NCBI GenBank assembly: GCA_014874265.1
Contig: JACWAM010000032.1
Span: 1 to 50,867, forward strand
Source of the DNA: Thermoleophilia bacterium
GTDB lineage: Bacteria; Actinomycetota; Thermoleophilia; BMS3ABIN01
DNA length: 50,867 nucleotides
Reading direction: 5' to 3'
In this document: piece after piece, positions 45,748 to 49,963 of the stretch
Layout: each line of letters begins with the position of its first letter
How positions within the stretch are numbered: position 1 is the first letter of the stretch
Position numbers and translations under genes: made by a program
The notes under the pieces: generated by a model
What the model was told of the DNA's origin: nothing
What the model saw: only the letters and a program-made list of their open reading frames with translations
The model's database searches: none

Positions 45748-46722
45748 ATGAAGATCATGATTACCGGCGGAGCCGGCTATATCGGCAGCGTGCTTACTGA
45801 AAGATGTCTGGCAGCGGGCCACCAGGTCACTGTTTTTGACAACCTGTCCACCGGTCACCGCGAAGCGGTCCATCCGGAAGCCCTGTTAATAACAGGAGAT
45901 GTCGGCGATCGGACCGGGGCGGCCGCGGCGCTGAAAGAATCCGGAGCGGAAGCGGTCATTCACATGGCCGGATTTATCGAAGCCGGCGAATCGATGTCCG
46001 ATCCAGGCAAATATTTTCGCAACAATGCCTGCCGGCCGCTTGAGCTGCTCGAGGCCATGCGGGAAACCGGCACAGGCCGGATTTTGTTTTCGTCGACGGC
46101 GGCAATCTTTGGCGACCCCCAGACAGAGATCATCGAGGAAGATCATCCGAAGCATCCCGCCAATGCCTACGGGCAATCAAAGCTTTTTTTCGAGCAGATG
46201 CTGGACTGGTATGATTCCATTCACGGGATCAAACATGCGGCGCTCAGGTACTTTAATGCCGCCGGGGCATCGCCGAAGAGGGGGGAAGATCACCATCCGG
46301 AGACGCATCTGATTCCGCTCGTGCTCAAGACAGCGCTGGGCCAGCTGGATGGTGTCGAAATCTATGGCGCCGATTATCCAACGCGCGACGGCACCTGTAT
46401 CCGCGACTATATCCATGTCGAGGACCTTGCCGACGCGCATCTGCTTGCCATGGAAAGCCTGAATAATTCAAGCCTCCACTTCAATCTGGGAAACGGCAGG
46501 GGATATTCCGTCCGTGAGGTAATCAATGCCGCCCGCCGTATTAGCGGGCGAAAGATTGACGCCTGGGAAGCGGCGCGCCGCCCGGGTGATCCGGCAGTCT
46601 TGGTGGCTGGATCGGAGAAGATCGTCGGCGAGCTCGGCTGGCGCCGCCGTCATCCCGATATCGCCGACATTATCGCCAGTGCCTGGGAATGGCACCACCA
46701 TCATCCGCAGGGCTACCGGTAG
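45748..46722 (+). CDS. galE: UDP-glucose 4-epimerase
   Basis: Interconverts UDP-glucose and UDP-galactose using NAD. 324 residues: GGAGYIGS (7-14) for NAD, SSTAAIFGDP and the catalytic Tyr-x3-Lys in NAYGQSKLFFE, then YFNAAGA, GTCIRDYIHVEDLADAH and YSVREVINA. A related epimerase substrate (for example UDP-GalNAc) is possible. It probably supplies sugars for the neighbouring surface glycan genes. Confidence 0.93.
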   Translation: MKIMITGGAGYIGSVLTERCLAAGHQVTVFDNLSTGHREAVHPEALLITGDVGDRTGAAAALKESGAEAVIHMAGFIEAGESMSDPGKYFRNNACRPLELLEAMRETGTGRILFSSTAAIFGDPQTEIIEEDHPKHPANAYGQSKLFFEQMLDWYDSIHGIKHAALRYFNAAGASPKRGEDHHPETHLIPLVLKTALGQLDGVEIYGADYPTRDGTCIRDYIHVEDLADAHLLAMESLNNSSLHFNLGNGRGYSVREVINAARRISGRKIDAWEAARRPGDPAVLVAGSEKIVGELGWRRRHPDIADIIASAWEWHHHHPQGYR

Positions 46723-46794: not shown

Positions 46795-46846
46795 AAACAA
46801 AAAAAATGAAATCCTTCGACGGTTCCGGAGCGCCGAAGGATTTCAT
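46795..46846 (-). terminator. Strong intrinsic terminator
   Basis: Perfect 13-bp stem ATGAAATCCTTCG (46806-46818) / CGAAGGATTTCAT (46834-46846). On the minus strand it is followed by a run of seven T, so it ends the small secreted peptide gene at 46901; on the plus strand, after galE, the T-run is weak. Confidence 0.8.
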
Positions 46847-46900
46847 TCTTCTGACAGCTTTCTTACAAGCCATGGAAATCAACAAATAACTGGCCGATGA

Positions 46901-47086
46901 TCAATCGTCACACTCGTCATCACCAACGCGATGGTGACCATGCTCATACTCACAATTGGAGCTGCGGTGATCCCCGCCGTTTCGGTGGCCATCGTCACTG
47001 CGCTCGTGAGCAAAGGCGACGGCGCCAAAAGCCAAAGTTGTGGTCGCCGCCAGCCAGATGCTGGCGATAATTGCCCACTTTCTCAT
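46901..47086 (-). CDS. Tiny secreted His/Asp/Cys peptide (copy 1)
   Basis: A 61-residue exported peptide with a clear signal sequence (MRKWAIIASIWLAATTTLAF then GAVAFA, cut after about 26) and an excellent AGGAGGTGA ribosome-binding site. The mature peptide is rich in His, Asp and Arg, with two cysteines, ending in DDECDD. It resembles a metal-binding or signalling peptide. It is a paralogue of the peptide at 47628-47783: the signal peptides align (MRK[WF]AI[IL]AS[IV]WL) and both end in CDD. Family not recognised. A strong terminator follows. Confidence 0.75.
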   Translation of the reverse strand: MRKWAIIASIWLAATTTLAFGAVAFAHERSDDGHRNGGDHRSSNCEYEHGHHRVGDDECDD

Positions 47087-47627
47087 GATTTCACCTCCTG
47101 TTTATCTCATCCTTCTCTCTTAAAAACCCGACTGGAAAACCCGTTTATGAGGCTAGCAAATAATAACGGGGTCCGTCAAGAAGGCGAACCCCGTCTGTTC
47201 ACTTTTAAAGTGATAAAGCCTGCAGCGGCTGCCTTGCTTTTTCCCTTATTCCCGATATCCGGATGAGAAAACCGGCAGGCGCAGCATAGAAATGAGCTAT
47301 TCATGAGCTATTCAATTTGATCGGACAAATACTGACCTAAAGAAACAATTTGGGTTGCTCTTAAGATCAGCCATCACCCGACACGCGAAAGCATCATTGA
47401 AACTCAGGCGGGAAAAAGAAAGGGATTCGAACGGCAGGCTCCGGAGCCAGACGGGATAAGCAACTTGCCTGTTACGGAACAGAACCCGATCAGGGCCTTT
47501 TCACTCTGCTCCTCTTACCCTCATATCCGAATTGGAACCCTAAAACCACCCGAACGTGGAACGCGAACTTTATTCATGCTGAGTTTTTGCTGGGGATTCG
47601 CTCTCGCCACGATCACGATCCTTTTTG
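47087..47627. other. Noncoding region between the two peptide genes
   Basis: About 540 bases without a convincing gene. It holds a hairpin ACGGGGT (47166-47172)/ACCCCGT (47188-47194), a 15-bp perfect palindrome TCACTTT-T-AAAGTGA (47199-47213) and a possible weak promoter for copy 1 on the minus strand (TTGACG at 47174-47179, 18-bp spacer, TAGCCT at 47150-47155). An 11-bp direct repeat, ATGAGCTATTC, occurs twice in tandem around 47292-47313. No tRNA or known riboswitch is seen. Confidence 0.45.
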
Positions 47628-47783
47628 CTAGTCGTCGCAATTGCGGTGGCAATATTCATGACCACCACTGCCGCCACCGTGATCACCGCCCCCGCCGCCG
47701 TGATCGGCGAATGCAACAGCGCTGAAGCCGAGGCTAACGGTGCAGACCAGCCAGACAGACGCTAAAATGGCAAACTTCCTCAA
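47628..47783 (-). CDS. Tiny secreted Gly/His/Cys peptide (copy 2)
   Basis: A 51-residue peptide starting at TTG (47781-47783), five bases after a perfect GGAGGTGA (47789-47796). The signal sequence MRKFAILASVWLVCTVSLGF continues SAVAFA, with cleavage expected after about 26. The mature part is Gly-rich with HD/HGGG pairs (ADHGGGGGDHGGGSGGHEYC) and ends in CHRNCDD, so two Cys and four His that could bind metal. It is paralogous to copy 1 at 46901 and has its own promoter. Confidence 0.75.
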   Translation of the reverse strand: MRKFAILASVWLVCTVSLGFSAVAFADHGGGGGDHGGGSGGHEYCHRNCDD

Positions 47784-47847
47784 ACTGTTCACCTCCTTGA
47801 AAGACTCCCGGGTTTAAGGGCCTAGCTTCCGGCCCCAATGTGGATTT

Positions 47848-47876
47848 ACAATAGCATAACGGTATATATTGTTCAA
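47848..47876 (-). promoter_or_regulatory. Promoter of peptide copy 2
   Basis: The minus strand shows TTGAAC (47871-47876), 17-bp spacer and TATTGT (47848-47853), about 65 bases before the TTG start of copy 2. It is back to back with the start of the O-antigen-ligase-like gene. Confidence 0.5.
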
Positions 47877-47896: not shown

Positions 47897-49963
47897 ATGC
47901 TAACTATGTCAGTTTTTGAAGAACGGGTGAACTGGCTTTCCTGGACCGCAACTGCCGGTGTTTTGGCGGTTTTCCTTTATGCCGCTTCCTTTGACGGCGC
48001 CTTTTTTACGCGGGAGATTTTTTTAGCGGCGACGGGAGTCCTGGCCATCCTGGGAATGGCCCTTTTAATCAATTGGGACCGGATTGAGATACCTTCAGGG
48101 TCCGGAGCGCCGATGATTGCCCTTTTTGGCATCGCCGCCTGGACGCTGGCCACGACCCTGTGGTCGATCGCGCCAAATCTGTCGCTTGCTGAGTTTGGCC
48201 GCATCTCAATTTATCTGGCTGTTTTCGTTGCGATCCTGACAGGCCCCCCCGGCCGGAAGGCGGTTTACATTACCGTTTCACTTTTTGTGGCGTTTGTGAC
48301 CGGGCTGGCCTTGTTTGCCTTGATGGCGAAGATCAGCCCGGCGCTATCGCAATCATACCTGTATTCCGGCGGCCGCCTGATGGGAAGCGTCGGTTACTGG
48401 AACGGGCTGGCGGCGCTGATGATAATGGCCATCCTTCCTTCTGTCTGGCTGGCCTCCAGCCGTTCGGTTCCCTGGCTCGGGCGCCTGGCGGCGACTCTGT
48501 CGCTGACAATTTCGGGCCTGGCCCTTTTCTTTACCCTGTCACGCGGCGGTCTGCTCGTCGGCGCCGGAGCAATCACGCTTTACCTCGTTCTTAACCGGGA
48601 GCGGCTGGGAGCCCTTGCTTCACTCCTGTCGGCGTTCATCCCGGGCGGGATTTTCGCCTGGTACGCCTCAACGTCGCTCCCGACGCTACAAATTGCCGCC
48701 ACCGGCGACCGGATCAGCGCTGCCGACGGCCACCGCTTCGCCACCGGCCTCGCAGCCGTGCTAGTCGCCGCTTTGGCGATGAAGAGCGCGTCGCTGCTCT
48801 TGCCGACAAGCCTGCCCCGGACACGAAAAACAGTGCTGCTTGCCGGAACCGTCATTGGTCTAGCCGCCCTGGTTGTGGCTGGCGGCGTATTAATTGAAAG
48901 GCAACATATTGTCAATAAACTGCATAGCCTGCAATCAGAAACGTCAGCTCCGGTCTACGATTACAACCAGAAACAAATAGATGCCCAGGGGGTAGCACGC
49001 CTTGCGTCAACCTCAAACAACCGGCTGGAGTTCTGGCGGATCGGACTGACAAACTTCCAGAATCACCCGCTGACCGGCACCGGCGGCGGCACATTCCGGT
49101 TTCCGGACGCCCAGCTTCGCTCCATCCTCGGGGGAGCACGCGATCCTCACTCCATCTGGGTCCGCTTTCTCTCCGACCAGGGAATTATCGGCTTCGGGCT
49201 GCTGCTTATCTTTCTCGGCTCGCTGGCCTGGTTGCTCGCCCGTCAGGTGTTTGCAAACAAGGGGCTTTTTCGGGACAGCCTGTTCCTGGCGCTCGTAATC
49301 GCCTGCCTGGCCTGGCTGGCAGATTCCAGCTTTGAATGGAACTGGGCCCTCCCGGCTGTCGCCATTCCGTTCTTCCTGCTGGCGGCGCTGGCGCTGCGCC
49401 TGGGAAGCGCAGGAGAATCAGGGACTGCCGGGCCGGAGGCCGGCGCACCCGGGCACCGCGTTGCCGTCCTGCCGGACAGCATCTACCTGGCAAGCTGGCT
49501 GAAGTGGGCCATCGTGGCCGCGTCGATGACGCTCACTATTGCCTTTCTCCTCCTCCTCTTTAGCGACGTTGTTGCCCAGCGCGCCAGCGCCCAGCTGACT
49601 GAAGGTCATCTCAGCGCCGCCAGGTCCGCGGCTGAAACAGCGCACAGGTTAAATTATCTCGATCCGGGACCTATGGTTACGCTCTCGGGAATATCGGAGA
49701 AGGAGGGCGATTTTACCGCTGCCCGCGACTATATGGAACGGGCGCTTCACCGCGAGCCGCAGGATTCCGCGCTCGAAGAAGACCTGGCCCTGATTGAGTT
49801 TTACGATCTGAAAAAAACCGGCCAGGGACTAATCGACTACAACAAGGCTGTTAACCTCGATCCGCAATACGAACCGCTTCATATCCAGTTTCAAAGGATG
49901 TACGCGGACAACTTGAAGTATGACAGGACCGGCATTATGCCCGCGAAACCGCAGCCCGCGTGA
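47897..49963 (+). CDS. O-antigen ligase/polymerase-like membrane protein with TPRs
   Basis: A 688-residue protein with about 12 membrane helices and the Wzy_C/WaaL-type pattern SRGGLLVGAGAITLYLV ... NNRLEFWRIGLTNFQNHPLTGTGGGTF cut at the family motif, followed by a large outside loop with HSIWVRFLSDQGIIGFGLLL. After the last helix (about 545-565) come TPR-like repeats (EGDFTAARDYMERALHREPQ). Such proteins ligate or polymerise lipid-linked oligosaccharides; the exact reaction is not readable. Start ATG 47897 lacks a strong ribosome-binding site; ATG 47906 is equally possible. Confidence 0.83.
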   Translation: MLTMSVFEERVNWLSWTATAGVLAVFLYAASFDGAFFTREIFLAATGVLAILGMALLINWDRIEIPSGSGAPMIALFGIAAWTLATTLWSIAPNLSLAEFGRISIYLAVFVAILTGPPGRKAVYITVSLFVAFVTGLALFALMAKISPALSQSYLYSGGRLMGSVGYWNGLAALMIMAILPSVWLASSRSVPWLGRLAATLSLTISGLALFFTLSRGGLLVGAGAITLYLVLNRERLGALASLLSAFIPGGIFAWYASTSLPTLQIAATGDRISAADGHRFATGLAAVLVAALAMKSASLLLPTSLPRTRKTVLLAGTVIGLAALVVAGGVLIERQHIVNKLHSLQSETSAPVYDYNQKQIDAQGVARLASTSNNRLEFWRIGLTNFQNHPLTGTGGGTFRFPDAQLRSILGGARDPHSIWVRFLSDQGIIGFGLLLIFLGSLAWLLARQVFANKGLFRDSLFLALVIACLAWLADSSFEWNWALPAVAIPFFLLAALALRLGSAGESGTAGPEAGAPGHRVAVLPDSIYLASWLKWAIVAASMTLTIAFLLLLFSDVVAQRASAQLTEGHLSAARSAAETAHRLNYLDPGPMVTLSGISEKEGDFTAARDYMERALHREPQDSALEEDLALIEFYDLKKTGQGLIDYNKAVNLDPQYEPLHIQFQRMYADNLKYDRTGIMPAKPQPA

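Follow-up and report, generated by a model that had tools for sequence, protein, structure and literature searches.

The window, i.e., the whole 50.9-kb stretch of DNA analyzed, carries two small genes on the minus strand, A and B, which lie between galE and the gene of a membrane protein (Table 1). Both open reading frames were found exactly where the original prediction had placed them. The translation of A is MRKWAIIASIWLAATTTLAFGAVAFAHERSDDGHRNGGDHRSSNCEYEHGHHRVGDDECDD and that of B is (TTG)RKFAILASVWLVCTVSLGFSAVAFADHGGGGGDHGGGSGGHEYCHRNCDD, and the two sequences match each other with E = 3.8e-8. An alternative GTG start of B at position 47792 falls within the Shine-Dalgarno sequence, and TTG is therefore the right start codon. 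TTG starts are common to several members of the family described below, each time with a similar Shine-Dalgarno sequence, and the start position is kept in orthologs and paralogs of A and B. Regarding the neighbors proposed earlier, galE was borne out, and the "polysaccharide ligase-like" gene could be refined to a member of the Wzy_C O-antigen ligase family with a TPR tail. Its Wzy_C domain scored above the cutoff (PF04932, E = 7e-14); for the TPR region (residues 599 to 631), TPR_14 and TPR_2 gave weak matches below their cutoffs and CTPR proteins matched at E 2e-4.

Table 1. Features of the peptide locus (positions in the window)
Feature	Position	Strand	Remarks
galE	45748..46722	+	Convergent neighbor of A; TIGR01179 above cutoff
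Terminator of A	46799..46848	-	20-pair hairpin followed by T-run; -26 kcal/mol, z -6.5
Peptide A gene	46901..47086	-	ATG, 61 aa; signal sequence and 35-residue His/Asp-rich tail; in the ORF list
Shine-Dalgarno sequence AGGAGGTGA of A	47091..47099	-	One of only two in the window
Promoter-like TTGACG-18-TAGCCT of A	47150..47179	-	63 nt before start codon; same position in genomes G005 and G004
Hairpin ACGGGGTTCGCC..GGACCCCGT	47166..47194	-	z -4.2; overlaps -35 of A
Noncoding element, about 60 nt	47509..47567	-	Directly 3' of B; conserved; single copy per genome
Peptide B gene	47628..47783	-	TTG, 51 aa; signal sequence and 25-residue Gly/His/Asp tail
Shine-Dalgarno sequence AGGAGGTGA of B	47789..47797	-	One of only two in the window
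Promoter-like TTGAAC-17-TATTGT of B	47848..47876	-	TGC before -10; 64 nt before start codon
Wzy_C (O-antigen ligase family) membrane protein, C-terminal TPR	47897..49963	+	Divergent from B

The strong Shine-Dalgarno sites claimed for the pair are indeed perfect, and the nine bases AGGAGGTGA occur on both strands of the window only in these two copies, one per peptide start codon. Promoter-like hexamers end 60 to 70 nt ahead of the start in most family members, including equivalents of the B promoter in G005, G004, G010, G013, and G015, and none were found for the copies of the C13 and D types. The terminator hairpin of A is kept in G005; it is nearly symmetrical and may also serve galE. The hairpin between the two genes is probably the terminator of the B transcript. 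As it overlaps the -35 region of the A promoter, read-through from B and expression of A may interfere with each other. A and B are ordinary monocistronic genes and not chance open reading frames.

The noncoding element downstream of B was found in exactly the six peptide-carrying genomes, in one copy each. It contains short repeats of the GTTCG type and shows 64 to 80% identity across genera. No stable or covarying RNA fold was found for it (z-scores +0.2 to +1.9), and an Rfam scan of the intergenic DNA gave nothing above chance. It was rejected as a coding sequence, since no frame is conserved and the frames are broken by indels.

The peptides were searched for in the genome that holds the window (G000) and in 59 related genomes, which yielded a pair in G005 with 90% identity to A and 87% to B. 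Against these orthologs, dN/dS was 0.18 for A and 0.11 for B, and pooling four ortholog pairs between G000 and G005 resulted in a dN/dS of 0.13 (dS 0.37, dN 0.048, Fisher p = 7e-15), which indicates strong purifying selection. Of the two outcomes named in advance as speaking against the genes, no homologs in sister genomes and a noncoding substitution pattern, neither was found: homologs were recovered by both peptide and profile searches, and the pattern is that of coding DNA. Although A and B are short, missing from most of the class and without a known family, it is hardly credible that they are chance open reading frames or functionless decayed remnants, as the pooled dN/dS refutes this and as conservation across genera (E about 1e-13) and the conserved starts, promoters, and terminators argue against it. 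The sequence evidence shows that A and B are real genes under selection, with signal sequences and expression signals, and the proposed family of small secreted peptides is real.

At least 15 members of this peptide family were found, distributed over six genomes from two genera; both genera belong to a single actinobacterial family that is uncultured. The profile search recovered full-length members in 6 of 19 genomes of that family (2 of 7 genera), and no members outside these six genomes in a sample of 399 genomes of the class. No relatives were found on viral contigs, and no family of Pfam or NCBIfam matches the peptides. The B type is the one present in all six genomes; G004 has three copies, G010, G013, and G015 have one each, and G000 and G005 contain extra ones. 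Named contigs with members stem from metagenome-assembled actinobacteria (isolates FK_Sedi_B_Bin.151, FK3.bin172, and SKS1.bin55). In the D-type paralog of G000 (contig C16, L042:5000-5213), the A-run after the start codon is one base shorter than in G005, and the frame broken at its start reflects either an assembly error or a recent inactivation. The family of A and B is new and restricted to this lineage; its general kind, that of small secreted peptides, is a known one. Families so small escape routine annotation, above all when they use TTG starts.

In an alignment of the 15 members, the signal pattern noticed in A and B proved to be a Sec-type signal (RK-x-AI-x-A-x-x-WL...A-V-A-F/L-[AG]) shared with ten further members (12/15). 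Read from the sequences, it comprises a basic MRK, a 20-residue hydrophobic core, and AFA or AFG before D/H. The three D-type members have a different signal followed by AVPHYWGSS, with a tail of the same kind. Structure prediction showed a helix at residues 3 to 25 (the signal) only, the remainder being without secondary structure. An N-terminus like the peptide signals (MRKIAI..A..VLS..FILAFSATAFA, E down to 2e-6), together with a similar Shine-Dalgarno sequence, was also observed in a multiheme CxxCH cytochrome-like protein of about 280 aa in seven genomes of the family (L050:4828-5664, L051, L052, L053, L054, L055, and L056).

The tails are 22 to 45 residues long and rich in His, Asp, and Gly. 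Their sole invariant residue is the Tyr of an [E/Q]Y motif (15/15), and no conserved Ser or Thr was found in the mature tails of the 15 aligned members. The cysteines stressed by the original prediction are less conserved than this Tyr, which it did not mention. The two-cysteine C-terminus holds for 13 members, with a variable spacing of 3 to 13 residues; in G004_A and G004_D both Cys are missing, with Ser, Gly, or His at those places, and these two copies are still His-rich (8 and 5 His). The CDD ending of A and B is common in genus g1, but it is not a constant of the family, as other members end in CEH, CEEHH, CGGD, GGDD, or GND.

Metal binding, surface modification, and signaling had been considered as possible functions, and sequence cannot settle between them. 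Metal binding gains a compositional and one contextual argument, and the strict co-occurrence of peptide and ligase adds weight to surface modification. As for signaling, no receptor, export-protease, or regulator partner was found.

We favor the reading that A and B are secreted metal-binding peptides, and judge its chance to be about even. We infer cleavage, disorder, metal binding, and its purpose as follows. After Sec export, the signal of about 26 residues would be cleaved off, and the acidic His/Asp/Gly-rich tail, which is probably disordered, would be set free at or outside the membrane. The tail could then act as a soft multidentate ligand for Zn2+ or similar ions, with His, Asp/Glu, and mostly a pair of Cys placed around the invariant Tyr, and may serve metal buffering or delivery at the cell surface. 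The mature parts are consistent with this in their average composition (16% His, 23% Asp+Glu, 22% Gly, and 7% hydrophobic residues). The variable Cys spacing fits a flexible ligand set, and the Cys-free, His-rich G004_A and G004_D are easier to reconcile with ligands that can replace one another than with a disulfide being essential.

Additionally, the D-type paralog of G000 and G005 lies divergent from a Fur-family regulator gene and genes for ZnuA, an ABC ATPase, and an ABC-3 permease. Two tandem near-palindromes upstream of this Fur-znuABC-like operon, TGCAACTAAGTTGC and TGCAACTTGGGTGC (L042:4850-4930), are conserved in G005 and are a candidate metal-regulator operator. Sites like TGCAACTAAGTTGC were found in the znu intergenic region only and not upstream of A, B, or the C13 copy; A and B have no upstream Zur operator. 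In evolutionary terms, the znu linkage counts as one case. It has been lost in G004, whose D-type ortholog has other neighbors, and a stronger link was rejected for this reason. With the G004 copy elsewhere and the near-palindromes missing upstream of A, B, and C13, the zinc link is therefore only a hint. Further, no metal-binding family model matches, the tails of G013 and G015 have only 4 His, and metal binding leaves the invariant Tyr unexplained. If the tail does bind metal, it would be a minimal secreted metal buffer of an uncultured actinobacterial lineage.

Among the rival readings, the most interesting one, which also accounts best for the invariant Tyr and the ligase linkage, is possible, though we think it rather unlikely: the peptides would be dedicated acceptors, and the neighboring Wzy_C+TPR ligase would act as an O-oligosaccharyltransferase that puts a glycan on the Tyr, giving secreted or surface-held glycopeptides. 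The B-type peptide is flanked in every case by galE on one side and, on the other, by a Wzy_C+TPR membrane protein in divergent orientation. Peptide and ligase ortholog (at least 43% identity) occur together in 6 of the 19 family genomes and are both absent in 13, and the same division holds for B, the 60-nt element, and the ligase beside galE, which are present or absent as one unit. Where the contig permits checking, galE runs straight to the next conserved genes in peptide-free genomes. In a tree of neighboring genes, presence and absence are intermixed within both genera, implying that the whole unit was acquired or lost en bloc on several occasions, in concordant events. This is suggestive, but linkage alone could explain it, since neighboring genes get lost together even without a functional link, and co-occurrence with the ligase is no proof of a functional tie.

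Glycosylation of the Tyr is also in line with G004_C, which lacks Ser and Thr altogether, and with WsfB of Paenibacillus alvei. This protein shares the layout of Wzy_C and C-terminal TPR, is located with galE, and is the transferase predicted to form a Gal-to-Tyr linkage (PMC2943079). It is common for the acceptors of specific O-OTases to be encoded nearby (PMC12645811). On the other side, the extra copies of the C13 and D types are located elsewhere, and galE is not diagnostic, as it remains at the locus where the peptides are absent. Ligase homologs outside the family (about 30% identity) have no such peptide alongside, and no convincing small signal-peptide ORFs were found beside ligase homologs in other families. 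The ligase could equally join polysaccharide, and its AlphaFold model (mean pLDDT 45) is too poor for a comparison of folds. Glycosylation is compatible with metal binding, and both readings can hold.

Somewhat more doubtful still is a complete two-gene system in which the Wzy_C+TPR oligosaccharyltransferase would glycosylate the invariant Tyr of a dedicated secreted peptide of about 25 residues. A peptide of that size would, to our knowledge, be the smallest natural O-glycosylation acceptor known. With such a genetically minimal tyrosine-glycosylation pair of a tiny acceptor and its enzyme, tyrosine O-glycosylation in bacteria, which has been little explored, would become open to direct tests. 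The peptide family is moderately interesting, and would be more so if the link to the ligase is functional.

We consider it improbable that the tail acts as a signal or bacteriocin-like molecule in the form of a small secreted peptide with a disulfide loop (a CEYxxGxLVC hairpin in genus g6). The Cys pair of most members, the sequences CEYEHGKLVC and CEYRRGRLVC, which could form such a hairpin, and the several diverged copies per genome are in its favor. However, a model with a strict disulfide or zinc finger was rejected in view of the variable Cys spacing and the loss of Cys from two copies. In addition, the locus showed no gene for a dedicated exporter, maturase, immunity protein, or receptor, and PhrA-like matches are weak (E 0.003).

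Among known systems, mini_HHHH proteins (NCBIfam NF040554) resemble the peptides in being His-rich and about 45 aa long with an N-terminal hydrophobic stretch. A was rejected as a member, as it matches weakly (E 0.11, 12.8 bits versus a 40-bit cutoff), and we know of no link of mini_HHHH proteins to a conserved Tyr. The exported His-rich paralog beside the Fur-znuABC-like operon is reminiscent of the periplasmic zinc-handling proteins ZinT and AztD, which are folded proteins of about 190 to 340 aa encoded with zinc transporters; no sequence similarity of the peptides to ZinT or AztD was found.

As with the pilin-specific O-OTases (TfpO/PilO, TfpM, and PglS), the candidate acceptor is encoded beside a Wzy_C protein. 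Their acceptors, in contrast, are type IV pilins that carry the modification on Ser/Thr, and the peptide next to the ligase does not belong to the pilins, as it has no Pfam match. The ligase was rejected as a TfpM-type OTase (E 2.5e-4, 20 bits versus a 600-bit cutoff). Also among the closest known systems is that of WsfB, tyrosine O-glycosylation of the S-layer protein SpaA. Here the candidate acceptor is a 22- to 45-residue peptide and not an S-layer protein. As in that system, the neighboring gene encodes a Wzy_C protein with C-terminal TPR, galE lies close, and the conserved acceptor hydroxyl would be that of a Tyr, the invariant residue of the peptides.
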